The notes below the pieces were generated by a model, which was not told where the DNA came from, ran no database searches, and worked only from the letters and a program-made list of their open reading frames with translations. The position numbers and the translations under genes were made by a program. Shown here one piece after another: positions 8,028-50,929 of a stretch of 64,000 bases of DNA. The DNA lies in NCBI RefSeq assembly GCF_032878975.1, contig NZ_CP043875.1, forward strand, positions 860,370 through 924,369, written 5' to 3'. The DNA is from Methanoplanus sp. FWC-SCC4 (lineage in GTDB: Archaea > Halobacteriota > Methanomicrobia > Methanomicrobiales > Methanomicrobiaceae). The number at the start of each line of letters is the position of its first letter. Positions within the stretch are counted from its first letter, which is position 1.

Positions 8028-8090
8028 AGAAGTTGGGTTTCGACAGAGTGGAAAATAATTGGAGATATCAGATTTCTGATTAACACATTT

Positions 8091-24627: not shown

Positions 24628-24808
24628 AAATATCACATTAAAAAAATGATATTTATTGTTTTTGATTTAATCCTTTAAATAGCAAAAATTTTGTTTTTTT
24701 ATATTTAAATTTTGATCATATTTTTTATTAAATCATTTTTTCGAAGCAATTAAGATCAATTTTAAACACCAAAAATCAACTCTTTATTATAACCATGGGG
24801 CAGAGAAT

Positions 24809-29012: not shown

Positions 29013-29016
29013 ATAA

Positions 29017-30762: not shown

Positions 30763-30774
30763 ATAGGTATAAGG

Positions 30775-31590
30775 ATGGATCACTCATACGAAGAAATCAG
30801 AAAAGCGGCCATAGAAATACTTGCAGGGCGGGAAGAAGAACATTATACAAATAACCAATATAATCATTTTCGTGAAAATATTGCTAAAGTTCTTAGAAAA
30901 TGGCAAGATGATAGAATAACTGATAATAATGAACCATTCTCTTTCTCAAAACAAGACGATCTATATGTTCAGGAAGTCTTTTGGGACCTCTTCCGGCAGG
31001 GAATAATTACGCTTGGGAGCAAACATAGCCCGGGACAGGGTTATCCCTGGTTCCGGTTGTCTTCATACGGAAAGAAGGTGCTTGACGATGAAGATCCATA
31101 CTTCTTCCATGACCTTTCAAGCTATGAAAACATCATCCTTGCAGCCATCCCTGATATCGATGAACTGACACTCTTCTATCTCAAAGAGGCCATGCAGACG
31201 TTTATGGTCGGATGCTATCTTTCTTCTTCTGTGATGCTCGGAGTGGCACTTGAATATTCACTCAATAATCTCTATCAGGTTATTGAGGGAAATGCGGATT
31301 ATAAAGATCATTTCTCAAAGGTATCTGAAGAAAAGACTCTTCTCAGGAGATATAATAAATTTAAGAATAAACTGAAGGAAATTCAAAGAGTTCTCCCTTC
31401 AGAAATTAAGGAAGATCTGGATACCAATCTCGATATGATAGTATCTCTTATCCGCAACTATCGCAATGAATCAGGCCACCCAAGCGGAAAGGTTCTCAAC
31501 AGGGAACAATGCTATGTTAATTTGCAGCTGTTTATTCCCTGCTGTAAGAAGATCTATGAATTAAAAGAATTTTTTAGTCAGGTAACATGA
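30775..31590 (+). CDS. HEPN-like domain protein, RM-associated
   Basis: The 271-residue protein has an N-terminal region of about 110 residues with winged-helix character (FRQGIITLGSK and FRLSSYGKKVLDDED) and a helical C-terminal domain containing RNESGH (within IRNYRNESGHPSG), a fit to the R-x4-6-H motif of HEPN ribonucleases. HEPN proteins are common toxins or effectors in defence. It sits 12 bp after the nitrilase gene and overlaps the next gene by ATGA, so all three accessory genes are co-translated. It may act as a back-up effector when restriction fails, which is an inference. Confidence 0.65.
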   Translation: MDHSYEEIRKAAIEILAGREEEHYTNNQYNHFRENIAKVLRKWQDDRITDNNEPFSFSKQDDLYVQEVFWDLFRQGIITLGSKHSPGQGYPWFRLSSYGKKVLDDEDPYFFHDLSSYENIILAAIPDIDELTLFYLKEAMQTFMVGCYLSSSVMLGVALEYSLNNLYQVIEGNADYKDHFSKVSEEKTLLRRYNKFKNKLKEIQRVLPSEIKEDLDTNLDMIVSLIRNYRNESGHPSGKVLNREQCYVNLQLFIPCCKKIYELKEFFSQVT

Positions 31591-31868
31591 AAAGAAACGA
31601 TTATGCTATTTTTGATATGGAAATTCTTCTTCCTGCCGCTATTGGATTGGTTGTTGGATTTATCGTAGGCGATATTATACAGACTGTTATTACACAGGCA
31701 CTCTTTCCTGAGATTGCCGATGCTCTCGTAAATGCTTGTCCGGTTGAAGGACAATGGAAAGAAACACAAGAATCTACAATTGGCATAGTAAGAATTGCAA
31801 TTGACATGTTGTTTGGAGTCGGTGGAGCAGTCTCTATTATTGGATTTATGGCAATATTTCAAAGGTAG
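31587..31868 (+). CDS. Small membrane protein, RM-associated
   Basis: The 93-residue protein has two predicted membrane helices, ILLPAAIGLVVGFIVGDII and IDMLFGVGGAVSIIGFMAI, separated by a polar loop with one Cys. It overlaps the HEPN gene by 4 bp (ATGA), a sign of translational coupling. I recognise no family. Small two-helix proteins are frequent membrane-damaging partners in defence loci, but nothing in the sequence proves that here. Confidence 0.6.
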   Translation: MKRNDYAIFDMEILLPAAIGLVVGFIVGDIIQTVITQALFPEIADALVNACPVEGQWKETQESTIGIVRIAIDMLFGVGGAVSIIGFMAIFQR

Positions 31869-31980
31869 ATGATCCTGTTGTTCAATAAACAAAAAAAATC
31901 AAAATGATTATCTATCCTCAAAATAACTCTCAATTACCAAATTAATTTATTCTTATTCAATAATCCGGGATGAAAAACAC

Positions 31981-34881
31981 ATGGGATTCGATGAAGCAAA
32001 TACAGTCAGGGACGGGATAAGGGATCATCTTCAAAAGATCGGCTGGAAATATGTCCCTGCCATAAATCTACCAAGAGATCAGACTGAGGTAATAGTTGAG
32101 CCTTACTTAAAACAGGCATTAATTGATTTAAATCCTGAAATTGCCGAACAGCCTGATCGTGCAGATGAAGTAATCTACAAACTCAGAACCATTCTTCTAA
32201 GCGTTCAGAGCGAAGGACTTGTCCGGTCGAACGAACGATTCGCAGATATAATCTGTGGTGGTCTTTCGATGCCTTTCGGGGAAAACTACCGGCATGTTCC
32301 TGTAAAAATAATCGACTTTGAAAATCCCGGAAATAACAGCTTCATCACCACAACAGAATTATCATTTACCGGAGCAGTTCCCAAAAGAGCAGACAACGTC
32401 CTTCTTGTAAATGGAATCCCACTCATCATCGGAGAATGCAAAACCGCAACAAGACCTTCTATAAGCTGGCTCGATGCCGGCGAACAGATACACAATGATT
32501 ATGAAAGAAACGTCCCTGCTCTATTTGTCCCGAATGTATTCTCATTTGGTACAGAAGGCAAAACCTTCTATTACGGATCAGTGAGAACCCCTCTTGAGAA
32601 GTGGGCCCCCTGGAGAGAAGAAGAGGATGTCGGCCCTTCACCCCTCTCAGACGTATTTGAAACTGCAATGAACCTCCTGAGCCCTGCCATAGTTCTCGAT
32701 ATTCTCAAGAACTTCACACTATATGCAACCGATAAAAAGAATCAGAAGATAAAAATTATCTGCCGACACCAGCAGTTTGACGGCGCCAACAAAATTGTGA
32801 ACAGGGTTGCCGACGGGAAGGTTAAGAAAGGACTCATCTGGCATTTCCAGGGTTCAGGAAAGTCATTCCTGATGGTATTCGCTGCCCAAAAACTAAGGCT
32901 GAATCCGGTTTTAAAGAACCCTACTGTAATTGTCGTCGTTGACAGACAGGACTTGGACAGCCAGATCAATGCAACATTCAACACCACAGATATTCCCAAT
33001 ACAGTAGGGGCCGGCTCCCGCGAGGAGCTTCAGAAACTACTCTCCCAGGATACCAGAAAGATAATTATCACGACGATTCACAAATTCGGAGAAGCTGATG
33101 GAGTATTGAACGAACGGGAAAATATCATTCTCCTCTGTGATGAAGCACACAGGACCCAGGAAGGAAACCTCGGACAAAAGATGAGAGACGCACTTCCAAA
33201 CGCATTCCTTTTCGGACTTACAGGAACTCCGATAAACGAGGTTGACCGGAATACGTTCAAGGCATTCGGAGCCGCCGAAGATGAGAAAGGATATCTCAGT
33301 ATTTACTCCCCCGAAGACGCCTTAAGAGACAAAGCAACACTGCCGCTTCATTTTGAACCAAGACTTGTACAATATCACATTGAGAAGGAATCGATCAATA
33401 GTGCTTTTGAAGAACTGACCGATCAGCTTGAAGAAGACGAAAAGCACGAACTGATAAAAAGAGCTGCAAGAAGAATCAACTTCTTCCATAACCAGGAAAG
33501 AATTGATAAAATCTCGGAAGATATCGTTTTACACTACAAACAGCATGTAGAGCCAAACGGGTTTAAGGCGATGGTCGTATGCTACGACAGGGAATCCTGC
33601 GTCCGCTATAAGGAAGCTCTTGATAAGGTGCTGCCAGAAGAAGCATCTGATATTGTGATGACATTATCCAGGGGGGACCCACAGGAATGGAAGAACAGAT
33701 GGGACCGGAGTAAAGATGACGAGGAGAAACTTCTTGACAGATTCCGCGATCCCCTTGACCCGCTGCAGATACTGGTTGTGACATCCAAACTCCTGACTGG
33801 ATTCGATGCCCCTATTCTACAGACGATGTACCTGGACAAACTGATGAAAAATCACACTCTTCTTCAGGCAATATGCAGAATAAACCGCCCATATACGCAA
33901 AAATCATTTGGACTTGTGGTTGATTATATCGGTGTATTTGATGAAGTTGCAAAGGCCCTTGCTTTCGATGAAAAACTGATGAGAAATATTGTAACAAATA
34001 TCGAATCACTAAAATCAGCAATCCCGCCGACAATTGAAAAGTGTCTTAAATATTTCAAAGACGTTGACAGGAATATAAGTGGTTGGGAGGGACTTATTGC
34101 AGCACAGGAATGTATTCCAGACAATGCGAGAAAAGATGCATTTGCAGCTGATTATCAGAATCTATCAAAACTCTGGGAGGCAGTATCCCCGGATACATTC
34201 CTCAATCAATACAAAGAAGATTACAAGTGGCTGACCCAGGTGTATGAATCAGTAAAACCTGTCAGTATGGCAGGAGCACTTCTCTGGCAAAAACTCGGTG
34301 CCAAAACGATAGAACTCATAAACGAAAATGTTCATGTAACAGGCATAAGTGACGATTTTGATGAGATAATAATCGATGAAGATACTATCACCGACCTCCT
34401 GAAGACAAAGGATGAAAAGAAGATAAAGAGACTTGAAATAAGAATTATAAAGAGACTCAGAAAACATGCCTCCAATCCTGTCTTTATCGCTCTCGGAGAA
34501 AAACTTGAGGGAATTAAAGAGAGGTACGAACACGGCTTCATTGACAGCCTTGAATTTTTAAAGGCATTAATTCAGATTGCAAAGGATGTTGTTAAAGCCG
34601 AAAAGGAAGTCGAACCTGAAGATGAACAGAAGAAAGCCAAAGCGGCATTAACAGAACTTTTTGAAAATGCGAAAACGGACAAAACACCTGTCATTATTGA
34701 AAGAATAGTAAATGACATCGACTCGGTTGTAAGAGTTGTCAGATTTGATGGTTGGCAGCAGAGCAACCCCGGAGAAAGAGAAATTAAAAGAGCTCTTCGT
34801 GGTGAACTCCGGAAATACCAACTTCAAAATGATCAGGACCTGTTTGATAAAGCGTATGACTATATCAGGCAGTATTATTGA
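31981..34881 (+). CDS. hsdR: Type I restriction subunit HsdR
   Basis: The 966-residue motor-nuclease has the N-terminal PDDEXK site (IPLIIGECKTA, about residues 145-155), Walker A HFQGSGKSF (about 290), DEAH (LLCDEAHRTQ, about 385), motif III FGLTGTPI, and motif VI in LLQAICRINRPY. It translocates DNA and cuts far from the recognition site. A 112-bp gap separates it from the small membrane gene and may hold its own promoter. The IS5 copy lies 9 bp after its stop. Confidence 0.93.
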   Translation: MGFDEANTVRDGIRDHLQKIGWKYVPAINLPRDQTEVIVEPYLKQALIDLNPEIAEQPDRADEVIYKLRTILLSVQSEGLVRSNERFADIICGGLSMPFGENYRHVPVKIIDFENPGNNSFITTTELSFTGAVPKRADNVLLVNGIPLIIGECKTATRPSISWLDAGEQIHNDYERNVPALFVPNVFSFGTEGKTFYYGSVRTPLEKWAPWREEEDVGPSPLSDVFETAMNLLSPAIVLDILKNFTLYATDKKNQKIKIICRHQQFDGANKIVNRVADGKVKKGLIWHFQGSGKSFLMVFAAQKLRLNPVLKNPTVIVVVDRQDLDSQINATFNTTDIPNTVGAGSREELQKLLSQDTRKIIITTIHKFGEADGVLNERENIILLCDEAHRTQEGNLGQKMRDALPNAFLFGLTGTPINEVDRNTFKAFGAAEDEKGYLSIYSPEDALRDKATLPLHFEPRLVQYHIEKESINSAFEELTDQLEEDEKHELIKRAARRINFFHNQERIDKISEDIVLHYKQHVEPNGFKAMVVCYDRESCVRYKEALDKVLPEEASDIVMTLSRGDPQEWKNRWDRSKDDEEKLLDRFRDPLDPLQILVVTSKLLTGFDAPILQTMYLDKLMKNHTLLQAICRINRPYTQKSFGLVVDYIGVFDEVAKALAFDEKLMRNIVTNIESLKSAIPPTIEKCLKYFKDVDRNISGWEGLIAAQECIPDNARKDAFAADYQNLSKLWEAVSPDTFLNQYKEDYKWLTQVYESVKPVSMAGALLWQKLGAKTIELINENVHVTGISDDFDEIIIDEDTITDLLKTKDEKKIKRLEIRIIKRLRKHASNPVFIALGEKLEGIKERYEHGFIDSLEFLKALIQIAKDVVKAEKEVEPEDEQKKAKAALTELFENAKTDKTPVIIERIVNDIDSVVRVVRFDGWQQSNPGEREIKRALRGELRKYQLQNDQDLFDKAYDYIRQYY

Positions 34882-34890
34882 AAAATGTTA

Positions 34891-36011
34891 TAGAGGATTT
34901 CTATAAACCCCCCTCAACCACAAGTACTTTATTTTCCCAGATCGATCTTTAATTCATGAGTAATTTCACTAATTTTGCAATAAAAAGTGAATATGAGCAT
35001 ATTGCTGAATTGGGAGATCGATTGGGTGAAGTTGAAAAGATGATTGACTGGGAACAATTCCGCCCTATCATCAAAGAACTATATACAAACCAAACTGAAA
35101 TTGGAGGCCGTCCAAATCTGGATGAGGTTCTGATGATTAAGATGCTCGTCCTTCAGCAATGGCACGGTCTCTCTGATCCTGAACTTGAAAGACAGGCTAA
35201 TGACAGGATTTCTTTCAGACAATTTTTGGGTTATCCCTTAAAGATACCTGATCGTTCTACTATCTGGCTTTTTCGTGAAAGACTATCCAAATCCGGAAAA
35301 GATTCTCTAATTTGGAATGAATTACAGCGACAACTGGATCTTAAAGGTCTTTCAATTAGAAAAGGTATGATTCAGGATGCAACATTTATTCACTCAGATC
35401 CCGGACATACAAGAGTTGATACTCCAAGAGGAAAAGAAGCAAAGACCAGAAGAAGTAAGGACGGTACATGGACAAAGAAAGGAGGGAAATCTTACTTTGG
35501 ATATAAGCTGCACGTAATTATTGACAGTGATTATGATCTGATTCGAAGGATTTGTACTACTACTGCATCTCTACACGACAGTCAGATTGATTTATCTGAT
35601 ATTGATGAAGTTGTTTACCGGGACAGAGGCTATCAGGGAGCTGAATGCAAAGGATACAATGCCACAATGTTGAGAGGAGCAAGAGACCATCCAATAGGTA
35701 TCAGAGACAAACTTCGTAATAATAGAATCAGCAGGAAAAGATCCAAAGGGGAAAGACCATTTGCTGTGATTAAATCAGTTTTTGGATCAGGCAGTGTAAA
35801 AGTAACCGATTTGAAAAGAGTGCGGGTGAAAAATATGTTTTCAGCATTTTGTTTTAATCTCTATCAAATGAGAACAATTTATGGACATTGATCAAAGAGC
35901 GATAGCTATCTGAAATTGAAAGAAATATTCAAAGAAATGAAAAAATAAATCGGAAGAACAAACCTTTGATCTTATTGATTCAGTAAAAATTGGGATTATA
36001 GTAATTCTCTA
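34891..36011 (+). mobile_element. IS5-family insertion sequence, copy 2 (1,121 bp)
   Basis: Same ends, same length and no nucleotide difference seen from copy 1. Flanking TA dinucleotides at 34,889-34,890 and 36,012-36,013 suggest a TA duplication. It lies between hsdR and the Druantia-like operon, 114 bp before the first gene of the latter. Identity between the copies implies recent transposition within this genome. Confidence 0.92.
34956..35891 (+). CDS. IS5-family DDE transposase, copy 2
   Basis: The 311 residues are identical to the transposase at 2,735-3,670. The DDE residues lie in QDATFIHSD, YRDRGYQG and KGERPFAVIK. The gene is intact, so both copies should be active or recently active. 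Confidence 0.95.
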   Translation: MSNFTNFAIKSEYEHIAELGDRLGEVEKMIDWEQFRPIIKELYTNQTEIGGRPNLDEVLMIKMLVLQQWHGLSDPELERQANDRISFRQFLGYPLKIPDRSTIWLFRERLSKSGKDSLIWNELQRQLDLKGLSIRKGMIQDATFIHSDPGHTRVDTPRGKEAKTRRSKDGTWTKKGGKSYFGYKLHVIIDSDYDLIRRICTTTASLHDSQIDLSDIDEVVYRDRGYQGAECKGYNATMLRGARDHPIGIRDKLRNNRISRKRSKGERPFAVIKSVFGSGSVKVTDLKRVRVKNMFSAFCFNLYQMRTIYGH

Positions 36012-36125
36012 TAATTAATTTGCAAAAATAAAAGGGGAAAATCTTTTTTCGATTTGTAACAAATAGATATTAATAGTCAAAAATTATATTTTAATGCTTT
36101 CTGTTTAAAAGGAGGGGGAGTATTT

Positions 36126-37730
36126 TTGGAATATGCATATGATAACGAATCGCCAGGGAAACAATTTATTATATATGCCAAAGATTTAAAAAAAATAAAA
36201 AAAGAATCAAGCAAACAGACAAGTAAACAATATACCTGTCCTTTTTGTGGAGAATATGTTGGATATGTTTATTCAGATAAAATTAATCCGCACTTCAAAC
36301 ATATACGGGATTCACTTATTGCGAAAACATGTGAAAAGTATGTAGAAGGAAGTGGATATAATAGTTATAATTATAATCGAAAATTAGCTGGTTTTCCAAT
36401 ATATCTTAGAAAATTTGGTCAAAATTTTAGATTATATATGGGATTATTTCCTGTTCCTGAAGATGTAATCAAGAGGGAAATTAATTCTTCTCAAAAAATT
36501 GTATTAAAAAATCCTAATAATGCATTTTTAGTCCAAATATCTCTTGAAGACCTCATAATTGATGAATTCACATACTACTCATTAAATTGGCTTTATGAAT
36601 ACTATTCATTAAATTATGCGAATATCCCAAATTCTTTATTTAGTCATAAATGGGTTTCAGAAACTCCTGGAATCAATCATGAGGGTGCCATATTTTTTTG
36701 CAGCGACACATTCTCAAGAAAAGTTGCATTAAATGGGAAGATTACTACTGATACTGATTACTATTTAGTAATACCAACAAAAAAAGATATAATATCAAAG
36801 GAATTTTTAAAAATAGAATCTTCTAATGAATTGGCTGTAAAGGCAATGGATTATGAAAAATGGTCTGTTCATAAAATCAAATTTACTAAAATTACGAATG
36901 AGTCTAGTGAATTTGCAAGAGATCTCCATGTTACACTCGTTGAAAATCCTTCAAGACTTACACCAATTTGGCCACCACATATTCAGCAAGGGAATAAACA
37001 TTTTCATAAGAATAAATGTAAGGCGATTTATCTTTTAAAATCAAATAATCAAATAATAGATCGGAAATTTGTAAAAATAATTGAAAATTCAGAGTATCCA
37101 ATTGATAATGTTGAATTGATTTCAAATGGTGCCATATTTACAATAGAAGTTACTAAAGATCAAATAATCATTCCTCAAAATGATGAAAATGTTCAATTTA
37201 GTCCTGTAATCTCATTTAATTCTTCATTGGAACCAACTAAGTATATTCCTCCAATAATACAAACTCAATATGGAAATAAGAGTATTGGTGATGATAAAGA
37301 AGTAATTTTATGTAAAAACTCTAAATTTTCTATTAAATCAAATTTTAAATGTAATCTTTGCCATATTAGGGACAACCATCTAAGATCATTGTTTAGAGGT
37401 ATGCTTTCATCTCCAAAGATAACTGATATTGAGGAAGGAGATTCATTCCTGACTCTTCATGGTCTAGATATTATACAAGAGATCTACTTTCCCATTAAAA
37501 ATAAAAGATATAATAATAGCCTAAATTTAGAAGATAAACAAATTTATCAAATATTACTAAACAAAAAAGGACCATACATTCCTACCCCGATAGTTCTTAA
37601 GTACATTTTACCGAAATTAAAAGAATATCCCAAAGTAAAATCCTATATCCAAGACTCTTTTCGTAAAGGTAATATTCCAAAGTCTGCTTATGATAATATA
37701 ATCATGAATTTTTCAGGGGGAACTATCTAA
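36126..37730 (+). CDS. Druantia-like operon gene A: unassigned, CoiA-like zinc motif
   Basis: The 534-residue protein starts at a TTG preceded by a strong ribosome binding site (GGAGGGGGAG at 36,111-36,120). Near the N-terminus, YTCPFCGEYVG followed by INPHFKHI matches the zinc-binding opening of CoiA-like proteins (C-x2-C then PHFxH). A second pair of cysteines is at FKCNLCHIRDNHLRSLFRG (about residue 415). The rest gives no match I recognise, and no clear nuclease site is visible. It is first of four coupled genes ending in the large helicase; its stop codon directly abuts the next ATG. The DNA is more AT-rich than the RM locus. Confidence 0.7.
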   Translation: MEYAYDNESPGKQFIIYAKDLKKIKKESSKQTSKQYTCPFCGEYVGYVYSDKINPHFKHIRDSLIAKTCEKYVEGSGYNSYNYNRKLAGFPIYLRKFGQNFRLYMGLFPVPEDVIKREINSSQKIVLKNPNNAFLVQISLEDLIIDEFTYYSLNWLYEYYSLNYANIPNSLFSHKWVSETPGINHEGAIFFCSDTFSRKVALNGKITTDTDYYLVIPTKKDIISKEFLKIESSNELAVKAMDYEKWSVHKIKFTKITNESSEFARDLHVTLVENPSRLTPIWPPHIQQGNKHFHKNKCKAIYLLKSNNQIIDRKFVKIIENSEYPIDNVELISNGAIFTIEVTKDQIIIPQNDENVQFSPVISFNSSLEPTKYIPPIIQTQYGNKSIGDDKEVILCKNSKFSIKSNFKCNLCHIRDNHLRSLFRGMLSSPKITDIEEGDSFLTLHGLDIIQEIYFPIKNKRYNNSLNLEDKQIYQILLNKKGPYIPTPIVLKYILPKLKEYPKVKSYIQDSFRKGNIPKSAYDNIIMNFSGGTI

Positions 37731-39833
37731 ATGACAAAAAAAAATTACTCACTTTGCCTGACAATAATCGATCAAAATAGTTATTCTAAATTATTAAGAA
37801 TTGCAGATCCTGTTGTTAAAAGTGGTCCAACTTTATGGCAAGTGGGCAGGAAAAGCAAAATCGAGGATTTTCCAGAAATTAAAACAATAAGTATGGATCC
37901 TCACTCTGCTATAGATAATGAGTTAGGTATATGGGAATGGGAATTTGATCCTGAAGATAAAACTAAGCAATGGTCAAGCCGAACTCAAGAACTTTTTTAT
38001 GAATTGATATTTCTTGATAATGATAATTTAAATGAAGGATTAACAATACCTGCTATTGATCTTGAAGATAAGATTGATTTGATGATATCAGGATTTAAGG
38101 TTCAAAATAATATTTCAAGCAATTTATTGTTAGTATTTGGAATTAGTGAAAAAGATTACTATTGTTTCAACTTAAAAAAAACTGATTATAATCTAGAACA
38201 TAATGTCTTTAAGGTCAGAGATGGGGCAATTGCTAATGTACATAAAATTCAAAAAGAACATTGTATAGATACTAATGATCATCTGAAAAATGTTCCATTT
38301 GGAGCGTATGACGTTCAAAGAAGGATTATTTACAGGGAACGGAAATTAAAGGAGCCATTAGAAGAATTGCCTATTAAAAGCTTCTTAGGACTCTTTAAAT
38401 GCTATTTTGAGGACATTGGGCGAAGGATGGAATACAATGAAGAACAGAAATTACTAATTCAAAATACAATAGACTATGCATTAAAAAATAGAGAAAATAT
38501 TGAATACTTTTTTAAATTGTCAACTTTTGAAGAAAATGATTTCATTTTTACACATAGTACCATGAAAAAATTTGAAGAAGCATCTAAAATTATTCATGAT
38601 TATGTTTCAAAAAAAGGGGTTGAAAACTTTCTTGAAAGTGTCATTGAAAATACACCTGATTATAAAAATTCATATTTGGATATTCTAAAGGGAGATTATC
38701 TTATAGATGAAAAAATAAAAATTGAGCAAAATCTTAATGATCTTAGGAGTGAAGAAAAAGAACTTAAAAATGAATTAATAGTATTAAATACAAAAAAAGA
38801 AGAGATTTACCTTGAATATAATGATTATGAAAAAATAATTAGTAAATACAAGGAAGAAATAAACCAATTAAAAAAACAAAATGAGCAATTAAATCAATTT
38901 TGCAAAGATAAATTTAATTCCATAAAGGAATATTCTGGAAAATTTTTGGGCGAGATAGCCATATTAGATAGTATCCCTAAAAACTCAATAAGTTCTAATT
39001 CAATAATTAATGTAATAAAATCAAAATCAATTGAAAATGAGGATAGATTCAGTATAAATAATAAAAAAGATCTAATAGATGAATTAGAAGGGAACATCGA
39101 CAATATTACAATAAATCACAATTTCTCAGAAATTTTATCAAAATATATTGTTGGATGTTATCTTTCAGGATTACCAATAATTCTTATAGGGAATACATCA
39201 CAGCTCTTAGCTGAAACAATCTCTATAACATTCTGTTCTAAAACACCAGATATTATTCATCTTCCTACAGGATTTAATAATTTTGAGAATTTATCGATAT
39301 CCGTCAAATCAAGTGAAAGTAATGTAATAGTAATAAAAAATGCAATTGGCTATTGCGATGAATATCTCTATCTAAATCTTATTAGAGACAACCCAGAAAA
39401 GTTTCTACTTTTTTCAGCAGAATTCAAAGATACTATAAGGATACTTCCATCTGGCATCTTAGGGTATATGGGCATTATTGATTGTGAAGAAATAATTTCT
39501 CCATTCGTTTTTGATGAAATATTACCCGCAATAATTGAAAATATAGATCCTCCTAGTTATGACAAAAAAATATATAAAAATCTTTATAAAAAAATATCTG
39601 AACTTACGATATATTCCCCAATAACTAAAGGATATAATAATTCTAGAGCTAAAGCTCTACTGAGCCTTTCTGAAGTGGAGTTAGATCAAAATCGTTTATT
39701 GGAAATTATAATTCCAGAGTTAATTTATTATAATCAAATTCAAGAAACTATTGATAATTATATTGAATATTTACAATCCTTTGAAAATTCTGCGTATTAT
39801 GAAATCGCAAAGAAATATTGTAACGGAGATTAA
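37731..39833 (+). CDS. Druantia-like operon gene B: coiled-coil protein with degenerate AAA-like domain
   Basis: The 700-residue protein has an N-terminal mixed region (to about 330), a long coiled coil (about 335-400, rich in Lys/Glu with KKQNEQLNQF) and a C-terminal part (about 465-620) laid out like an AAA+/McrB-type ATPase: strand and loop LPIILIGNTSQLLAETI where Walker A should be, VIVIKNAIGYCDEYL where Walker B should be, and FLLFSAEFKDTIRILPS like a sensor strand. The Walker A lysine is missing (GNTSQ in place of GxxxxGKT), so it probably does not hydrolyse ATP. It starts right at the stop of gene A with upstream GGGGGA. Confidence 0.65.
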   Translation: MTKKNYSLCLTIIDQNSYSKLLRIADPVVKSGPTLWQVGRKSKIEDFPEIKTISMDPHSAIDNELGIWEWEFDPEDKTKQWSSRTQELFYELIFLDNDNLNEGLTIPAIDLEDKIDLMISGFKVQNNISSNLLLVFGISEKDYYCFNLKKTDYNLEHNVFKVRDGAIANVHKIQKEHCIDTNDHLKNVPFGAYDVQRRIIYRERKLKEPLEELPIKSFLGLFKCYFEDIGRRMEYNEEQKLLIQNTIDYALKNRENIEYFFKLSTFEENDFIFTHSTMKKFEEASKIIHDYVSKKGVENFLESVIENTPDYKNSYLDILKGDYLIDEKIKIEQNLNDLRSEEKELKNELIVLNTKKEEIYLEYNDYEKIISKYKEEINQLKKQNEQLNQFCKDKFNSIKEYSGKFLGEIAILDSIPKNSISSNSIINVIKSKSIENEDRFSINNKKDLIDELEGNIDNITINHNFSEILSKYIVGCYLSGLPIILIGNTSQLLAETISITFCSKTPDIIHLPTGFNNFENLSISVKSSESNVIVIKNAIGYCDEYLYLNLIRDNPEKFLLFSAEFKDTIRILPSGILGYMGIIDCEEIISPFVFDEILPAIIENIDPPSYDKKIYKNLYKKISELTIYSPITKGYNNSRAKALLSLSEVELDQNRLLEIIIPELIYYNQIQETIDNYIEYLQSFENSAYYEIAKKYCNGD

Positions 39834-39837
39834 TTAT

Positions 39838-40878
39838 ATGAATAAAAATATCTATCTTCAAATAGCAAAGGATTTAAATATAACCCATTTTTCTAAAGAA
39901 AACGAGAGTCAATTCATTGGTCGTATAATATATTCTGCAATTTCAGAGTGGATCAAAGCATCTACATTTGACAGAAAAATTGACGATCATGAGGGTGTTA
40001 AAGAAGAGGGTTGCACAAAACATCATATTACTAGAAAATGTGGAGAAATATTAGAAGGGTTTCTTGAAATATATCCCCATATTGAATTTTATTTTTACCC
40101 CTTTGAAGAAAAAGACCCCAAACCTGTACAGGAAATTCAAAAAAGGTTATTGTTGGGGGGGGTATTAGTACCCGGAGAAAACAATACAGTTCAACTTTCG
40201 AAAGAAAAAAATGGCTTTGTCAATAATAATCTATATTTCGAACGTGGATACTTTTATGAACCTGGAAAACAGGTATTTGGGCTTGGTTGTTATAGAAATA
40301 GTCAAAAAGAGAACATTCCTTGTGTTAGATTAGAAGAATTATTTTACATCCCTAATGAAAATGCTGAAAAAACAGTAAATTATTATATAAATGAATTTAA
40401 AAGCAATTTTATTAATATCTCAGATATTCCTGATTATTGGAGGTTTTTTGATTATTCATCAAAAAAGAGTTTTCATAATTCATGGAATGAATATTTTGAT
40501 AAGAATAGGGAAATCACAGTATATAAAAATAATATAAATAACTCTGATTATGGATTCATTAAATATTCTGGAGGGAAATTCTTTTTCACACCTTTCCCTA
40601 AACATATTATTCAAACTAAAGAAGTTAGAAGAATTCTGTATGGAATAAGGTCTATTGAAAATAACCCTTGCAATTCAGAATTAACAATACAAGGAAAAGA
40701 AGTGAAAATTCAATTATATACATCCCTCCCTTTAAGAGAACAGTCTTTACTATACATGATTTCTTGGCCTGTCAATAACATGTACGACAGGACACAATAT
40801 ATTACCTCAATTAAATTTTTACCAGTTATTCAAAGGATTCTAAGTAATTTAAATGTTGATTTTAAGGTGATAACATGA
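39838..40878 (+). CDS. Druantia-like operon gene C: unassigned protein
   Basis: The 346-residue protein starts at the ATG at 39838, 4 bp after gene B, with GGAG upstream. It opens with a helical part (IYLQIAKDLNITHFSKENES) and later contains a Cys/His-bearing stretch (EEGCTKHHITRKCGEILEGF) and many aromatic residues (YWRFFDYSSKKSFHNSWNEY). I recognise no family. Its last codons overlap the helicase start (ATGA), so the two proteins are probably made in fixed ratio and may bind one another. Confidence 0.65.
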   Translation: MNKNIYLQIAKDLNITHFSKENESQFIGRIIYSAISEWIKASTFDRKIDDHEGVKEEGCTKHHITRKCGEILEGFLEIYPHIEFYFYPFEEKDPKPVQEIQKRLLLGGVLVPGENNTVQLSKEKNGFVNNNLYFERGYFYEPGKQVFGLGCYRNSQKENIPCVRLEELFYIPNENAEKTVNYYINEFKSNFINISDIPDYWRFFDYSSKKSFHNSWNEYFDKNREITVYKNNINNSDYGFIKYSGGKFFFTPFPKHIIQTKEVRRILYGIRSIENNPCNSELTIQGKEVKIQLYTSLPLREQSLLYMISWPVNNMYDRTQYITSIKFLPVIQRILSNLNVDFKVIT

Positions 40879-43800
40879 CAGAGATTTACGGAATACAAAA
40901 TACTCACAAAGAGCTTATAAACAAATTAAAAAATTATATTCAGTCTCAATATTTTGGAGTAAATAATTTACTTCTTGAGGTAGGAAATGAACTTTTAGAG
41001 AAAGACAATACATTATATCAAGATCCATACATAGAATCAAATCCTCTTTACAAAATTTCTAATAATGGATTGTCAACTGCAGACATTCCAGAGAATGTTC
41101 GGGAAATTCTTCATAAGATGGCTGATCAAAATCTCGGTGTTTTTGAAAGCCCATATACTCACCAGATTGATGCATTAGAATCCTTTTTCCATGGACGAGA
41201 TATTTTGGTTACAACTGGAACGGGTTCTGGTAAAACTGAATGCTTTATGTGGCCTATTATCGCAAGCCTAGCTAATGAAGCACAATCAAATCCGGAATCT
41301 TGGAATAAAAGGGGGATTCGTGCACTTTTACTTTATCCAATGAATGCACTTGTTTCTGACCAGATCGGTCGGTTACGTAGGATGATCGGAGATAATGATG
41401 GTAATTTTCATTCAGTTTTTATAGAATATGCAAACGACCCAAATATTCGCATTCCACAATTTGGAATGTATACTGGAAGAACACCATATCCCGGTGCCCC
41501 TCAATTAAAAAAGGATAAAGAACTTGCAAAAACAATGGAACGTGATCTTTTAGATGGAGACCCAGAATTTATTAATGAGTTAAAGAAAATAGGAAGATAT
41601 CCTGCAAAAAAAGATCTTAATGAATTTATAAATTATTTAAAGGAAGGAACTCATTCAACCGATCCTCATGATGCTGAATTGATTACAAGATGGGAGATGC
41701 AGAATTATTGTCCGGATATACTTGTCACAAATTATACGATGCTTCAATTTATGCTTATCCGGGAAATAGAAACATCAATTTGGGATAAAACACGAGAATG
41801 GTTAAATGCTTCTCCTGAAAACAAACTTCTGATTGTAATTGATGAAGCCCATATGTATCATGGGTCTCCAGGAGGAGAGGTTGCTCTACTTCTTCGTCGT
41901 TTGATGTACAAATTAAAAATTAATAGAGATAAAATTAGATTCATTTTAACTAGTGCAAGTATTCCCACTGAATCAACAGAAGATAAAAAAGTAATTCAAA
42001 ATTTTTTCAATGATTTAACTTTAAATAACTCTGAAAATGATAACTTTTCAATTATATCTGGCAAAAAGAAACAGGTTTCTATAAAGGATAAGATAGATTT
42101 CTCTGCAAAACTAATCGCAGATATCTCTATCGATGAATTTCTAAAAGATGAAGGAGAAAGAAAAGCCGAAATTGAGAATTTTTTCAAAAATCTTAATTTT
42201 GACATTCCAGATTTAAGTTATGCTGAAATTGGTAATTTTCTGTATGAAAATCTTTCAAAATTTGCTCCGGTACAAAGACTTATTCAATATACATCTGGAA
42301 ATGCAATTAATTTTAAAGAATTAGCCAATATTGTATTTCCTAATGACCCTCCAGATGTCGCCAATTACTCCGTTCAGGTTTTACTTGCTATTATGCCCCT
42401 TGCAAAAAGTGAAGGGGGGCAAGTTTTATTTCCGGCTCGTCTTCATATGTTTTTCAGAGGACTAGAAGGAGTATTTGCTTGTACAAACCCTAATTGTCCA
42501 AATAAATGTTCCGGTGATGGAATCACTCTTGGACAGATCTACGCTGATAGTGGAAGAGAAACTTGCTCATGTGGCGGAAAGATATATGAATTAATAAATG
42601 ATCGTCGTTGTGGTGCTTTATTTATAAAGGGTTACATGAGCAGCAATATATCAGAAGAAGGGAACGATCTCTGGAGATATCCAGGAGAAATTTTTTCTAA
42701 AGATATGAAAGAGATCAATTTGTTTATTGTACCTGAAAACTACCGAATGAAATCAAATAAAACAATGAAGGGTTGGTTGAATCCAAAAACAGGTGTTGTT
42801 CATTTTGATGATCAATATAAAGATGATGGTTTTTTAAAAGTTTTATATCCTGATCCTAGAAACGAAATTAGTTCTAAAATGGGAATATTAACATTTAAAT
42901 CCTGTCCAAAATGTGGTGGCAGGATTGGTAATCGAACCTTGTCTGACTTTTCAACAAAAGGAAATGAACCATTTTATAATATTGTTGCCTCCCAGTTACA
43001 TACTCAGCCTCCAACTATATTTGATGAAAAAATGTTGATACAGCAACCAAATGCAGGACGAAAAGTATTATTATTTTCAGACAGTAGGCAGAAAGCTGCA
43101 GTACTTGCAAAGGATATGACAAGATCAGCAGATGATGAGGCTGCTAGATCTGCAATTGTACTTGCTGCATACAATCTTCAAAAGTGGGCCGAACAAAACA
43201 ACAGAGATGTTACATTAGAAATGTTATATCCGGCATTTCTTGAAATTGCAAACAATAATAATTTAAGATTATTCTATGGGGGAGATAAAGATATATTTGA
43301 TTCAGATCTTGGAGTTATTAAGAAAGAGTTATCTAGAGTAAATAGAAGAAACAAAGGCTTGGATTACGATAAATTATCTGGAAAATTCCGTAATCCGCCA
43401 GGATTATATTCAGAACAATTATTAAAAAATCTATGTTCCTCCTATAGATCTTTAATAGATCTTGGATTATGTTGTTTAGAGCCTAGCAATTCTGATGATA
43501 TTGACGACTGTATAGAAGAATTGTCGGGTGAAGGAGTGAATATTTCAGAGAAAGAGTATATTTCAATTTTTTCATCATGGTCTAACAATCTCTGTACAGA
43601 AAAATATGCAATTGGAGAAAATATCTCTAATAGAGTTAGGGAAAACGTTTTCCGTCATTCTCATGGACGGCTAGGTGTTGAACAAAAAGATCTAGATAAA
43701 ACTCCTAAATTTCTTAAAGAAATTCTTAAATCACAGAAGTACAATGATGAAGAAATAGATTCAATTCAACAAACTCTCAATGATACATTTTTAGGAAGAG

Positions 43801-46160
43801 GAAATGAGAATCAAGAGTTATCATATCTCTTACTTAATAAAATCCAATTAAAGTATAATGAAACATCTGAATGGTTCAGATGTAATACTTGCTCTGGTAT
43901 ATTTCCAAAATCATTGTGGGGGCACTGCGCAAGGTGTGGCGGAGAGTCAATAGAGAAAATCTCTGATTTTGAAAGATACAAATTTTGGCGAGAACCTGTT
44001 TTAGATACAATAAATGAGGGTTCTGGTCAGGAAATTAAAACGATAAATTCAGAAGAACATACTGCTCAATTATCTTATAAAGACCCTCGTGAAAAAACCT
44101 GGTCTCAAACTGAAAGTTATGAGATGAGATTCCAGAATATTTGTTTTAAAGAAAAATCCCCAATTGATGTTTTAAGTTGTACTACTACAATGGAAGTTGG
44201 TATTGATATTGGATCATTAACAGCAATTAGTCTTAGAAATGTTCCTCCAATGAGAGAGAATTATCAGCAGAGAGCAGGTCGTGCAGGAAGACGTGGAACT
44301 TCAATTTCGACTATAGTTACCTATGCACAAAATGGGCCCCATGATGGTTGGTATTTCAATGATCCGAAGAGTATTATCTCAGGAAATCCACGATTACCTT
44401 GGATAGATGCAGAAAATGCAAAGCTGAATAAAAGACACCTGAATTTAGTTGTCTTAAATGACTTTTTGAACAAAAAAAATACTGATCTTGCAGACTGCGC
44501 AACATTATCATTTTATAATGAATTTTTTGAAGATTTTCTAATATTTATGGGTGATTTAAGCTATGATCAAAGTTCTACTAAATTATTATTATCCAATAAT
44601 TTCAACAGCAATAAAAGCATTAAAGAGTTTAAGGCCGCTCTCATTGAAAATTTGAAAATAATTCGAAAAACAGTGATTAATAATCCAGAAAGATACAATT
44701 CAAATAAATATGAAACCTCTTCTCTTTTAGATCATTTAAATTCTGAAGGTATTTTACCAACTTATTCATTTCCACAAAATGTAGTAGGATTTTATATAGA
44801 AGATAAAAATGGGAATATTGAGCAAAGGCCAGAACGTTCACTTGAAATTGCAATTAGTGAATATGCACCTGGAAAGATACTAGTTGTGGATAAGAAAACC
44901 TACAAAGTTGGGGGAATTTATAGTTACCATTCTAAATTTAAAAATAGTTATCAAGAAAAGCAAGCTACACCATATTTTGATGATCCAAACTATTTCTATG
45001 ATTTATACCAATGTGAAAATCAAGAATGTGGATGGACAGCAACAGAGGCACCAAAAAATGATCGCTGTCCTTTCTGTAATTCAATGATCAAATCAGATCA
45101 CAAAATGCTAAAACCATGGGGATTTGCTCCAATTAATGGTAGAAGCATACCTGAATCTTGGGCTGAGGTTGAATATTCATATGCGGAAGAACCTTGTTAT
45201 TTTGCAGAACCTGATCAAAATGACTTAAAGGACATAGGATATCCTCACATTAAAGCAGCTAATCGTTCGGATAAAATCACTGTGATAAATAAAGGAATTA
45301 ATGGAAATGGATTTTATGTTTGCAGAAAATGTGGGGCAGCTGAGGTAGTGCAATTATCAGAGCCTTCTTTTAAAGGCATTGGTGCACCCTATATTCCACC
45401 TTCAAAAAGAAAAATTCAATGCAATCATTCTGATAGTTCAAATATTGAAAATGTCTATCTGGGTCATACTTTTAATACAGATATGGTTGTTTTTGAATTT
45501 GATCTTGATAAAAACAAGATAAATACTGGATATAAGGGATTATGGATGAAAAATGCTGCAATTACATTAACAGAGGCTTTACTTTTAGCAGCAAGTAGAA
45601 ACTTAGATATAGACTTCTCTGAGCTTAAAGCAGGGTTTAGAATCCATAGTAATGAAAAAAATGTGTTTATTGATATTTATCTTTATGACAGTCTATCAAG
45701 TGGTGCAGGTTATTCTTCAGAATTGTTAAACATTAGTTTGGATTCAATTTTTAAAAGCACCGAAGAAACTTTGATTTGCCCATCAAATTGTGAATCAGCG
45801 TGCCATAATTGTTTAAAACATTACTGGAATCAAAATCACCAAGATAAACTTGACCGTTTTGCTGCTCTTGATTTATTATATTGGGGAATGAAAAACAAAC
45901 TTCCTAAAGGCTTAACTCAGGATAAACAAAAAGAACTGTTAATGCCACTAATTGAGAGATTAAAAAATTATAATCCAGAGATCTGTCTTATTGAGACTGA
46001 AAATGGATTATATGTTTCTAATAATAAATTGAAGAAAAAAATTATAATTTATCCTGCCATGTATAAGCTTCAAGATAATACTGAAACTATATATTTATCT
46101 GATAGATTAGTAAAACGTAATTTGCCACTAGCATACAATATGGTAAAAGGGATATTTTAG
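40875..46160 (+). CDS. Large DEAD/DEAH helicase with DUF1998-type C-terminus (DruE-like)
   Basis: At 1,761 residues the protein matches the size of DruE, the helicase that defines Druantia defence systems. Visible elements: Walker A TTGTGSGKTE (about 114-123), DEAH in IVIDEAHMYHG (about 321), helicase C motifs TTTMEVGIDIGS (about 1103) and QQRAGRAGRRG (about 1131), and the terminal cysteine cluster CPSNCESACHNCLKHYW (about 1635) of DUF1998. Between the helicase lobes are several zinc-ribbon-like cysteine pairs (CPKCGG; CNTCSG then CARCGG; CPFC). An ideal Shine-Dalgarno sequence (AAGGTGAT) precedes the overlapping ATG. DISARM DrmA and Dpd helicases are related alternatives. Confidence 0.88.
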   Translation: MTEIYGIQNTHKELINKLKNYIQSQYFGVNNLLLEVGNELLEKDNTLYQDPYIESNPLYKISNNGLSTADIPENVREILHKMADQNLGVFESPYTHQIDALESFFHGRDILVTTGTGSGKTECFMWPIIASLANEAQSNPESWNKRGIRALLLYPMNALVSDQIGRLRRMIGDNDGNFHSVFIEYANDPNIRIPQFGMYTGRTPYPGAPQLKKDKELAKTMERDLLDGDPEFINELKKIGRYPAKKDLNEFINYLKEGTHSTDPHDAELITRWEMQNYCPDILVTNYTMLQFMLIREIETSIWDKTREWLNASPENKLLIVIDEAHMYHGSPGGEVALLLRRLMYKLKINRDKIRFILTSASIPTESTEDKKVIQNFFNDLTLNNSENDNFSIISGKKKQVSIKDKIDFSAKLIADISIDEFLKDEGERKAEIENFFKNLNFDIPDLSYAEIGNFLYENLSKFAPVQRLIQYTSGNAINFKELANIVFPNDPPDVANYSVQVLLAIMPLAKSEGGQVLFPARLHMFFRGLEGVFACTNPNCPNKCSGDGITLGQIYADSGRETCSCGGKIYELINDRRCGALFIKGYMSSNISEEGNDLWRYPGEIFSKDMKEINLFIVPENYRMKSNKTMKGWLNPKTGVVHFDDQYKDDGFLKVLYPDPRNEISSKMGILTFKSCPKCGGRIGNRTLSDFSTKGNEPFYNIVASQLHTQPPTIFDEKMLIQQPNAGRKVLLFSDSRQKAAVLAKDMTRSADDEAARSAIVLAAYNLQKWAEQNNRDVTLEMLYPAFLEIANNNNLRLFYGGDKDIFDSDLGVIKKELSRVNRRNKGLDYDKLSGKFRNPPGLYSEQLLKNLCSSYRSLIDLGLCCLEPSNSDDIDDCIEELSGEGVNISEKEYISIFSSWSNNLCTEKYAIGENISNRVRENVFRHSHGRLGVEQKDLDKTPKFLKEILKSQKYNDEEIDSIQQTLNDTFLGRGNENQELSYLLLNKIQLKYNETSEWFRCNTCSGIFPKSLWGHCARCGGESIEKISDFERYKFWREPVLDTINEGSGQEIKTINSEEHTAQLSYKDPREKTWSQTESYEMRFQNICFKEKSPIDVLSCTTTMEVGIDIGSLTAISLRNVPPMRENYQQRAGRAGRRGTSISTIVTYAQNGPHDGWYFNDPKSIISGNPRLPWIDAENAKLNKRHLNLVVLNDFLNKKNTDLADCATLSFYNEFFEDFLIFMGDLSYDQSSTKLLLSNNFNSNKSIKEFKAALIENLKIIRKTVINNPERYNSNKYETSSLLDHLNSEGILPTYSFPQNVVGFYIEDKNGNIEQRPERSLEIAISEYAPGKILVVDKKTYKVGGIYSYHSKFKNSYQEKQATPYFDDPNYFYDLYQCENQECGWTATEAPKNDRCPFCNSMIKSDHKMLKPWGFAPINGRSIPESWAEVEYSYAEEPCYFAEPDQNDLKDIGYPHIKAANRSDKITVINKGINGNGFYVCRKCGAAEVVQLSEPSFKGIGAPYIPPSKRKIQCNHSDSSNIENVYLGHTFNTDMVVFEFDLDKNKINTGYKGLWMKNAAITLTEALLLAASRNLDIDFSELKAGFRIHSNEKNVFIDIYLYDSLSSGAGYSSELLNISLDSIFKSTEETLICPSNCESACHNCLKHYWNQNHQDKLDRFAALDLLYWGMKNKLPKGLTQDKQKELLMPLIERLKNYNPEICLIETENGLYVSNNKLKKKIIIYPAMYKLQDNTETIYLSDRLVKRNLPLAYNMVKGIF

Positions 46161-46960: not shown

Positions 46961-49900
46961 TTATTCTGAAACTCGGTTAAACCTTTCCATGAATGAGCAT
47001 TTATACTTGTGCCACATTGACTGAAGTTGTGACACAGAACTCAAGTATTCATATTCAACATTGTATATATCCTCATAATCTTCTAAAATTCCGGCAACTT
47101 TATTCATTATAGGTTCGATCTCATCATCTCTTCCCAACTGATATAGTGGCACTAACATTGCACACAGAGCATCTTTGTTTTCCGGATTTTTTTTAAGCAA
47201 GCGCTCTGCTTTTCTTAATTTCTCATCTGCATCCTTTACGTAATCATTACATTCCAGTTTCAATTTAACAACAAAATTTACTAATTTATCCTCAACAACG
47301 ATTTCATCTCTTTCCAGTTCATCAAGAATCTTTTTGGCAGGCCCATATTTCTTAGAAATATTTAATATTGTATAATCCCTGATTTTATCATTTATGTGAG
47401 AGTACCTCTCGTATTTTTTATTGGCATCATTAGCCATATCCATATAATCAGCATAAAGTATAGAGTTATGATTTTTCTTTGCTTCTTCAGCTAATTCTTT
47501 ACATAATCCTGCTTTATTTGATAAGAACGGTGTACTCCACGGTTTAATCTCAAGACACCTGTTGTAATATTTTAATGCTGACAGATTTTTCCCATCATAT
47601 TCACAGGTACTTCCTAATTTAAACAAAAGATCACAGCTTTTCATTGAGTCATCCCACCTTCTTTTTTTCTGTGTTGACCCCCACAATTGCTGAATCAGAG
47701 TGTTCAGCCTGATAACAAAGTCTTCTCTGATGGCATTCAATTCAGACTTGCTTAAAACATCGCCATGTGCAATCTCATTTCTTTTCTCCACAATTGCAGA
47801 GCATGCCTCTTCAATTGAATTAAGGCACTCTGTGGAATAATTATCAGATAAATTATTGCAAATGTTGACTATTAAATCAGGAGTATTTTTATCATAATTT
47901 TCCATTTTAAAGATATTTTTCCATATCATTTTGTGCCATGAACCCAGGCTGAAAGAATGACGATTTTCCCCTGCAATCAGTGACGGAGAAATCCACCACA
48001 TACCTTTCAGTTCTTCCAATTCATCATCAGATCCAAATTCACTGACAACACCAGACCAGATCTTTTCATCCAGTAATGACTCCAGACCTTTGGCATATTT
48101 AAGAACCGGACCGGAGAAATCAAAATTTTCATCATAATTATCCCTGCAGATTGTAAAATATTCATAGTCAGCTGATTTAAACGATATTACAGCGTCAGAA
48201 CAGCCTTCTATTGCCTCAACTCTCACATGGTCTTCCAGATAACTATCCAGTTCGACTAAGTAATGGAGTACTCTATTATTGTAAGGTCCTTCGGAAACAG
48301 CAAGCTTAAAACACTCCCATGCTGATTCAAAATCAAGCTGATTCATGTAGATGACGCCTATGCGTTCATAAATGCTGGTGTCTTCTTTAAAGACATCCAG
48401 CTTTTTAATAATCCATTTAATTTCACATCTGTCCTTCTGGTCAGTAGTAGTATTAGCTGCTGCATCCAGGACTTTTTTAGCATTGTCAAGCCAGTTTACC
48501 AAATACAGATTGGGTTTTTTATATTCCTCAATTGCAGTAATATCCCCGGAATACTCTTTTAGAGAGGCCAGGCCAAAATGAAGGTCTCTTTTTTTTGAGA
48601 ACCAGTTATCTATACTCTTTTTATATGTACCATGCAATGATTTAGAAATTACATCTGGATCGGAACTGCTTATTGCGGCTGGCTGATTTCTCTCAGCATC
48701 CGCAATTTTTTGTTCAAACCATTCTTTGCACAACGGAATAATGGAAGCTTTTATTGAGGACTCTGTAACTATCTCATAATAATTATCCACAGATTCCATT
48801 ATACAGTCAAAGAGAGGAAATAAGCACTCTTTTAGAGATTCACTTTTTTCATTCTTAACCTCAACAGCAATAAACTCTAAAAGAAAAATACACTGCTTCT
48901 TTTTTTTATCATCAATCTTTCTGTAATGATCTCCCAGCCACTTTTCAATGGCACCAAAAAGGACTTCCCTCCCGGAATTAATCTCCCCTGAAATTACTTT
49001 GCATAAATAAAAATAGGCTTCTGATAATGGCGGGTAAAGTAAAGAATGACTTTTCTGATTTGACTTGATAGACTCATCCAGAGCATTGTAGATCACTGGA
49101 CAATCCTCTATTTTATTCCTGGAAATATGGTACAGGCAGCGTCCGGCTTCAGCCATACCATCTTTGTATTCTTTCTTACCGCTGCCGATCAGAACCTTTG
49201 CTTTTTTGTATTTACTGGTAAATTGAAAAAAATCTGTTCTCCGGTCTGGATCAGCATATTCCAATCTGGAATTAATCTCCTTAAACCGAAGTTTACGGAC
49301 ATACTCCCAAAGATCAAAAAACTGGGATTTAAATGAGGGAAGATAACTTTCAGCACCCATTTCTTCAGCAATCGCATACAGATGATTCAGAATAATTGCC
49401 TTTGCATCAGATGTACGCTCCGGCAGGGATTTGGTAAGATTAAGAATCTTTTCTTCTGCTTCATTAGTATTGCCGTATGAAAGGCATTTTTTAATGCTGA
49501 CAATCTCCTTAAAATCATCCTGAGTATATCTTTTTGGTTTATTTTCCCTGATAAAACCAGATAAATCACACCATGTCGGAAAGCAATACTGGCAGCGTCT
49601 TTCAGATTCATTGAGGATAAATTCCTCATTATCAAGGTTACCAGATAAGATCTCATGTGCCTTATTATAGCACTCCCTGGTGCCTTCTGAATCTTCACAG
49701 AGCCATAATGAATCACCCAGAAAAAGTGTCCAGACAAATGTTTCATATTCAGTTAACGAATCACGCGATAGAATTTGTTTAATTGCGACAATTCTCTCAT
49801 TTGAAGAAGATATGCCCTCTAATAAACCTCTTTCAAACCAAGAAATCGGCCATTCTGAGATGTCTTCCGGAATTATTTCAAATCTTTTCTCGTGATTTAA

Positions 49901-50929
49901 ATATTCTACCTGTTCATCAGATGATTTCTCCGAAAACCAGAATTCCGCTGCAATTGTCAGAACATCGGTGGTGAATTTATGGTAACGAAGATAGGTGTAT
50001 TTCTCATCATAAGAACCGGAGCTGTATCCATAAAAACCATACCAGAAATCAGAAGGAACCGGAACAGAAAATTCCGATGCAAATTTATCCCTTATCTCCT
50101 TCATAAAAGGTGCATAAACCTTGTCAGGTGAATGAATATTATGGTGATGAAAAAAATCTCTTGGACTAAATTCATTTAAGTCAGATTTTGCATCAGGAGT
50201 TGTAGCCGAGTTTGAATTAAATCCTGCCAGGCCATCTTTCAGGTTGTAATAATATGGAGTTGAAATTTCGGATACAAAATACTCCTGCCAGGAAAGTTTT
50301 AGTTCTGTACCTTTTTCCTGATTTGTAAAATATTCCAGCATATCCAGATTATTCCATGGTTTTGGATATTTACTGAGATATTTTAGAACAGGATGAATTT
50401 CACTGCCGATATTTCCATATTCCAGCAGATATTTGATAAGATTGTCATTGAAAATATTTCCGGCAGGAAATAATAAATCAGAATAACCTCTCTCGTGCCT
50501 TTTAAAAAGAGCCTTAATGACAGAATATTCTGAAACTTCAGACTTTTTTGAATCTTTTAAGGCGCCTTTCGTACCATCCTGCGGGAAATAGTATTCAGCA
50601 TATCCTGTAGAGGTTGAATTCTGTAGATTTTTTACATATATGAGTGTTTTCTCCAGAAATTTCTGGTTTTCACCCTTTTTTAGCTCATGATATACATTCT
50701 GTAAAGTACCGGCATCAGAGGCTAACTGATAGAGAAAACAGCTCATTCTTCCAAGCTGGTTGTTTACATCTGTAATTTCTTCATCAGTAAAATATTCTGC
50801 ATTTTCCTGAATTGTCTGGATTTTTTTTATGCGGTGTAATTCATACAGCGACCACTGAAAAACAACTGATGGTATCTGCATTATCATTCCTGAATCTTTA
50901 AAAGAAGAATAGTTTTCATGACCATTCAT
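46961..50929 (-). CDS. 1,322-residue HEPN/TPR-like protein coupled to viperin
   Basis: This very large, mostly helical, cytosolic-looking protein contains a HEPN-type motif RNEIAH (in IVEKRNEIAHGDVLSK, about residue 1050) set between helices, and TPR-like segments before and after it (FESAWECFKLAVSEGPYNNR near 865; SALKYYNRCLEIKPWSTPFL near 1120). A CxxC occurs at RRCQYCFPTWCDLSGF (about 455). No ATPase motif was found. The start overlaps the viperin 3' end by 14 bp with its own ribosome binding site (GAGAGGGG), so both are one translation unit. I do not recognise the full-length family; a viperin-dependent HEPN ribonuclease effector is an inference. Confidence 0.7.
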   Translation of the reverse strand: MNGHENYSSFKDSGMIMQIPSVVFQWSLYELHRIKKIQTIQENAEYFTDEEITDVNNQLGRMSCFLYQLASDAGTLQNVYHELKKGENQKFLEKTLIYVKNLQNSTSTGYAEYYFPQDGTKGALKDSKKSEVSEYSVIKALFKRHERGYSDLLFPAGNIFNDNLIKYLLEYGNIGSEIHPVLKYLSKYPKPWNNLDMLEYFTNQEKGTELKLSWQEYFVSEISTPYYYNLKDGLAGFNSNSATTPDAKSDLNEFSPRDFFHHHNIHSPDKVYAPFMKEIRDKFASEFSVPVPSDFWYGFYGYSSGSYDEKYTYLRYHKFTTDVLTIAAEFWFSEKSSDEQVEYLNHEKRFEIIPEDISEWPISWFERGLLEGISSSNERIVAIKQILSRDSLTEYETFVWTLFLGDSLWLCEDSEGTRECYNKAHEILSGNLDNEEFILNESERRCQYCFPTWCDLSGFIRENKPKRYTQDDFKEIVSIKKCLSYGNTNEAEEKILNLTKSLPERTSDAKAIILNHLYAIAEEMGAESYLPSFKSQFFDLWEYVRKLRFKEINSRLEYADPDRRTDFFQFTSKYKKAKVLIGSGKKEYKDGMAEAGRCLYHISRNKIEDCPVIYNALDESIKSNQKSHSLLYPPLSEAYFYLCKVISGEINSGREVLFGAIEKWLGDHYRKIDDKKKKQCIFLLEFIAVEVKNEKSESLKECLFPLFDCIMESVDNYYEIVTESSIKASIIPLCKEWFEQKIADAERNQPAAISSSDPDVISKSLHGTYKKSIDNWFSKKRDLHFGLASLKEYSGDITAIEEYKKPNLYLVNWLDNAKKVLDAAANTTTDQKDRCEIKWIIKKLDVFKEDTSIYERIGVIYMNQLDFESAWECFKLAVSEGPYNNRVLHYLVELDSYLEDHVRVEAIEGCSDAVISFKSADYEYFTICRDNYDENFDFSGPVLKYAKGLESLLDEKIWSGVVSEFGSDDELEELKGMWWISPSLIAGENRHSFSLGSWHKMIWKNIFKMENYDKNTPDLIVNICNNLSDNYSTECLNSIEEACSAIVEKRNEIAHGDVLSKSELNAIREDFVIRLNTLIQQLWGSTQKKRRWDDSMKSCDLLFKLGSTCEYDGKNLSALKYYNRCLEIKPWSTPFLSNKAGLCKELAEEAKKNHNSILYADYMDMANDANKKYERYSHINDKIRDYTILNISKKYGPAKKILDELERDEIVVEDKLVNFVVKLKLECNDYVKDADEKLRKAERLLKKNPENKDALCAMLVPLYQLGRDDEIEPIMNKVAGILEDYEDIYNVEYEYLSSVSQLQSMWHKYKCSFMERFNRVSE

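Follow-up and report, generated by a model that had tools for sequence, protein, structure and literature searches.

A DruB-DruC-DruD-DruE operon, related to type I Druantia and without DruA, in a predicted defence island of a methanogen

A very large helicase encoded behind three tightly coupled genes in the methanogen Methanoplanus sp. FWC-SCC4 raises the question of whether the four genes form an undescribed system or belong to a known family of defence operons. The window analysed here is a stretch of 64,000 nucleotides from contig NZ_CP043875.1, and all positions refer to it unless another locus is named. The best explanation, to which we give a probability of about 85%, is that the operon is a DruB-DruC-DruD-DruE relative of type I Druantia, without DruA, situated in a defence island of a methanogen in the family Methanomicrobiaceae. 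That part of the explanation which concerns identity, namely that the four genes are related to type I Druantia and lack DruA, we regard as highly probable.

The helicase and its three upstream partners

All four open reading frames lie on the plus strand and encode a DruB-like protein (gene A, 36126-37730, 534 residues, TTG start, N-terminal CoiA-like zinc motif), a DruC-like protein (gene B, 37731-39833, 700 residues, with a coiled coil at about 323-400 and a degenerate AAA+-like domain at about 427-607), a DruD-like protein (gene C, 39838-40878, 346 residues) and a DruE1 helicase of the YprA family (40875-46160, 1761 residues, with a DUF1998/MZB zinc domain). The first-pass annotation had described four coupled reading frames with a 0-bp gap between A and B, a 4-bp gap between B and C and an ATGA overlap between C and the helicase gene, and its coordinates and junctions were all reproduced. 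The region 36010-36125 on the same strand is the probable leader or promoter of the operon, as read from an AT-rich TATA-like element (ATTATATTTTAA) about 30-40 bp upstream of the start and a putative ribosome-binding site (AGGAGGGGGAG) within it.

The PADLOC model of DruE1 covers residues 2-1758 of the helicase, its full length, with a score of 1974 bits, and the models of DruE2, DruE4 and DruE3 score 656, 595 and 582 bits. Matches to DrmA (47 bits) and DpdJ (79 bits) run through the helicase core only. Pfam domains for DEAD (3.2e-19), Helicase_C and MZB (DUF1998, 8.6e-9) are present, the Walker A (GTGSGKT) and DEAH motifs are intact in the translation, and a profile built from the methanogen DruE proteins scores E. 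coli DruE at 1140 bits. The protein had been called a DruE-like DUF1998 helicase from its sequence, and the full-length DruE1 match together with the MZB/DUF1998 zinc domain bears this out. The operon therefore has the very large YprA-family helicase with DUF1998/MZB by which Druantia of any type is recognised.

The three genes before it had been reported as unassigned partners. None of them matches a Pfam or NCBIfam family above the cut-off, and the match of gene A to DruB1 is weak when that protein is taken alone (PADLOC, E=0.002). These two observations would favour an undescribed helicase-centred system, in which genes A-C are unrelated to Druantia and merely stand upstream of a DruE-like helicase. 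Against it, gene C matches DruD1 over residues 5-342 (E=6.3e-28) and gene B matches DruC1 (E=4.2e-7), and the matches extend across the homologues when these are scanned singly: 8 of 12 homologues of gene B match DruC1, and 9 of 12 homologues of gene A match the DruB1 model PDLC00005 (best 6.9e-7), with 3 of the 12 also found by a second DruB1 model, PDLC00004 (best 5.4e-10). Profile-profile comparison by hhalign of the methanogen families with reference proteins of E. coli (strain E62, locus L071, druA-druB-druC-druD-druE) and P. putida (KF715, plasmid pKF715A, locus L062) paired gene A with DruB at 93.9% probability, gene B with DruC at 93.8% and gene C with DruD at 81.1%. Gene A also paired with a profile of archaeal DruB-like proteins at 93.5%, and all remaining Druantia pairings of the three genes stayed at or below 0.7%. 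Such a one-to-one, order-preserving pattern indicates that genes A-C are very divergent relatives of DruB, DruC and DruD, placed upstream of DruE in the order of the type I reference; at the level of sequence comparison this settles their assignment. The first-pass annotation had favoured an undescribed system and had itself named profile matches of genes A-C to Druantia components as evidence against it. With such matches found, we consider an undescribed system very improbable.

The assignment of gene A itself leans mainly on its zinc-motif N-terminus and on its relatives. The CoiA-like zinc motif (C38-C41-H59-C69) proposed earlier is real, with C38, C41, F57, H59 and C69 unchanged across 12 homologues, although its likeness to CoiA is weak, the CoiA_N match (E=0.0021) lying under the Pfam cut-off. 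Searches of PDB sequences with E. coli DruB and with a DruD profile gave nothing significant, and the AlphaFold model of gene A (mean pLDDT 47.5), built like that of gene B from three sequences, gave no meaningful fold match.

For gene B (mean pLDDT 49.2), the AAA+-like part alone of the low-confidence model is usable. Its residues 427-607 resemble AAA+ domains (best Z 11.0, with 149 residues aligned at 3.0 Å), the AAA+ fold matches include 455 chains with Z of at least 8, and McrB is absent among the AAA+ matches listed. A long coiled coil (323-400) lies upstream of this domain. The Walker A lysine is absent among the gene B homologues listed and likewise from the DruC proteins of E. coli and P. 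putida, which together with the AAA+ resemblance lends support to the "dead ATPase fold" noticed in one of the partners at first reading. The model thus hints that the DruC-like protein could combine a coiled coil with a nucleotide-dead AAA+-like domain.

Absence of DruA in twelve methanogen genomes

Profile search for DruA (PF14236, DUF4338) found none anywhere in this genome and none in 11 relatives that carry the B-C-D-E set, so that DruA is absent from all 12. The same search does detect DruA in four further archaeal genomes with DruE1 loci (G299, G378, G334 and G206) and on two plasmids with such loci. Neither a DUF4338 protein nor a cytosine methylase is found among genes A-C by PADLOC or Pfam, as the first-pass annotation had said. 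The set occurs in 12 of the 232 genomes of the order with constant gene order, and its recurrence in identical order in 11 genomes beyond the present one argues that the arrangement did not arise by chance. In one of the relatives, G011, DruD is 61% and DruE 72% identical to the protein of the present genome. In a thirteenth genome (G082) the DruE gene is truncated where the contig stops, and the genes upstream of it cannot be judged. Relatives of the DruD-like protein were found neither in viral contigs nor on the plasmids searched for DruD.

Could another gene stand in for DruA? A copy elsewhere in the genome is rejected by the negative PF14236 search. A conserved fifth gene is rejected too: none travels with the block, flanking reading frames are common only to loci of related context, and the different insertion contexts have no flanking gene in common. 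The role of DruA could also have been absorbed by another part of the system, for example by about 300 N-terminal residues of the DruC-like protein. Neither these residues nor the C-terminal portion of the DruB-like protein can be aligned with their bacterial counterparts, and the hhalign match of gene B to bacterial DruC begins at column 361; the N-terminal region of gene B is conserved in the methanogens (invariant C9, L22-R23, A25-D26, W68 and W70). Against this stand the hhalign probability of gene B with DruA, 0.2%, and the N-terminus of bacterial DruC, which is unaligned as well, so that the region may simply have diverged. We consider such an absorbed role unlikely.

Deletion of DruA by a mobile element at this locus is also rejected. 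An IS5-type insertion sequence of 1117 bp (34893-36009, plus strand; reading frame with transposase domains at 34956-35891) lies outside the system, with its 3' boundary 116 bp upstream of the operon start codon. Six identical copies are present in the genome, and their comparison defines the ends of the element and an intact 4-bp TATA target duplication; without the element, some 123 bp would separate the operon from HsdR. No gene was lost in this insertion, which is recent and clean. Since the element ends so close to the start codon, it may affect expression of the operon. Two of its copies, this one and another with a reading frame at 2735-3670, share one orientation at a distance of about 31 kb and bracket the type I restriction-modification genes.

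A further alternative is that DruA decayed away and that the four genes are the non-functional remnant of a degenerate type I Druantia. It draws on the close association of DruA with its partners: among 64 E. coli genomes with druA, 63 have at least 80% of BCDE, and DruA is present in all other DruE1 loci examined that are complete enough to judge. A remnant is hard to reconcile with four intact genes found at several unrelated chromosomal sites in 12 genomes, or with an insertion sequence that deleted no gene at the present locus. Moreover, dN/dS ranges from 0.07 to 0.37 for all gene pairs tested in all four genes (values for the pair formed by the window and locus L013 are rough, as dS is saturated), which indicates purifying selection on each of the four. 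We regard the remnant as improbable. We read the operon as a type I-like Druantia that lacks DruA, a new variant rather than an undescribed system, and this upholds the other possibility that the first-pass annotation had raised. As DruA defines type I and is not found here, we file the operon as a relative of type I, not as type I proper.

How the variant arose is addressed by a DruE tree with outgroups, in which the methanogens form one clade (support 100) and the DruA-bearing proteins of E. coli, P. putida, Nitrosococcus, G334 and the haloarchaea form another (98 SH-aLRT in a quick tree); a grouping of the methanogens with only E. coli and P. putida is disfavoured (p-AU 0.013). Branches are long and bacterial sampling is thin, being limited to E. 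coli, P. putida and Nitrosococcus. A single gain of DruA fits best, provided that the outgroup DruE systems lack it, with loss in the methanogens as the less favoured alternative. Types II and III of Druantia are defined without DruA. A DruA-bearing clade sister to the methanogens would fit, with one gain, the idea that DruBCDE is a complete working defence and represents an ancestral type I core, which acquired DruA afterwards on the branch toward the bacterial and other archaeal systems; we offer this idea tentatively, as a possibility well short of even odds.

Genomic neighbourhood and comparison with known systems

The neighbours of the operon are further defence genes. A type I restriction-modification operon at 24809-34881 contains two adjacent HsdM genes (500 and 495 residues), HsdS, HsdR and a 271-residue gene without assignment; within it, 29017-30762 gives a CARF-nitrilase-like PADLOC match (E=1.8e-33). 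A prokaryotic viperin (pVip, E=5.4e-76) adjoins a 1322-residue TPR protein at 46961-51749 on the minus strand. The TPR protein has a HEPN-like match (PDLC02907, 892 bits), and in another genome (G005, locus L021) a relative of it is found some 4 kb away from the Druantia-like operon. A protein encoded at 23545-24636, also on the minus strand, has a NucS-like nuclease domain and matches PDC-S11 (E=5.5e-134), a candidate defence family.

Type I Druantia of E. coli E62 and P. putida KF715 shares with the methanogen set homologous B, C, D and E in the same order and orientation and a helicase of the DruE1 family. The methanogen set differs in lacking DruA in 12 genomes, in the unaligned N-terminus of DruC and in the strong divergence of B-D. 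Other archaeal loci combine the parts differently. Those of G334 and G206 have DruA, DruB-like, DruD-like and DruE proteins with DruC undetected, the reverse of the methanogen set. Haloarchaeal plasmids carry a longer DruA, divergently placed on the opposite strand beside SspF- and SspG-like genes, together with DruB-like, DruD-like and DruE proteins and again no detected DruC. A DruE1 helicase with DruB-like and DruD-like partners is common to all three. To judge from the proteins detected, the DruD-like protein and DruE are the most persistent part across DruE1 loci, and DruA, DruB and DruC vary.

Two plasmid loci deserve separate mention. On a haloarchaeal plasmid (L063, 1-6490 of that locus), a 705-residue DruA homologue shares its operon with SspF-like, SspG-like and FtsK-type translocase genes. 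The DruB-like, DruD-like and DruE genes run divergently from this operon, and the locus may be a Druantia/Ssp hybrid. On a Nitrosococcus plasmid (L072), a 955-residue protein without PADLOC match (6031-8898) lies between DruA and DruD and occupies the place expected for DruB and DruC in this DruE1-related locus.

A DruE-family helicase is likewise common to the methanogen set and to type II Druantia and type IV CoCoNuT, whose inactive AAA+-type protein parallels the fold suggested by the model of the methanogen DruC. In contrast to type II, genes A-C have no match to DruM, DruF or DruG at E<=1, and the helicase scores as DruE1, not as DruE2. In contrast to type III, they have no match to DruH at E<=1, and DruE3 scores far below DruE1. 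Type IV Druantia, as defined in PADLOC, has DruF and DruL beside DruE (PMC8565338). Genes A-C match neither of these at E<=1. DISARM has the split helicase DrmA-DrmB, Dpd its Dpd genes, and ARMADA a BrxHII-like helicase with an adjacent PglX-like methylase. Unlike these systems, the present locus has a helicase of a single 1761-residue chain, and its neighbours are type I restriction-modification, insertion sequence, TPR and viperin genes.

Predicted role of the four genes

From its homology to Druantia the operon would be expected to target invading DNA, and its role in defence is very likely. How it would act is more speculative, and we put the detailed mechanism forward at somewhat less than even odds. 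A study of type III DruE reports engagement of replication intermediates that contain single-stranded DNA (PMC13192584), and a Vsr nuclease domain of type I DruE is predicted to be inactivated (PMC12458937). Based on these two observations, we propose a complex directed against viruses or plasmids, with DruE as a YprA-family translocase that would load on the single-stranded-DNA-containing replication intermediates of the invader. DruB with its zinc module, DruD, and DruC with its coiled coil and dead AAA+-like domain could form a sensing and scaffold assembly that licenses DruE. Translocation by DruE would then arrest replication, or host nucleases would be recruited to the DNA or the DNA exposed to them. 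No nuclease domain was detected in the four proteins, whose divergence is high enough for one to be missed; arrest of replication or recruitment of host nucleases would therefore be likelier than direct cutting. DruA would not be needed in the methanogen lineage.

The operon suggests that annotation relying on DruA, or on strong matches to DruB and DruC, would miss loci of this kind. With the other four genes maintained under selection and DruA absent, this natural lineage would also allow the necessity of DruA to be tested directly.
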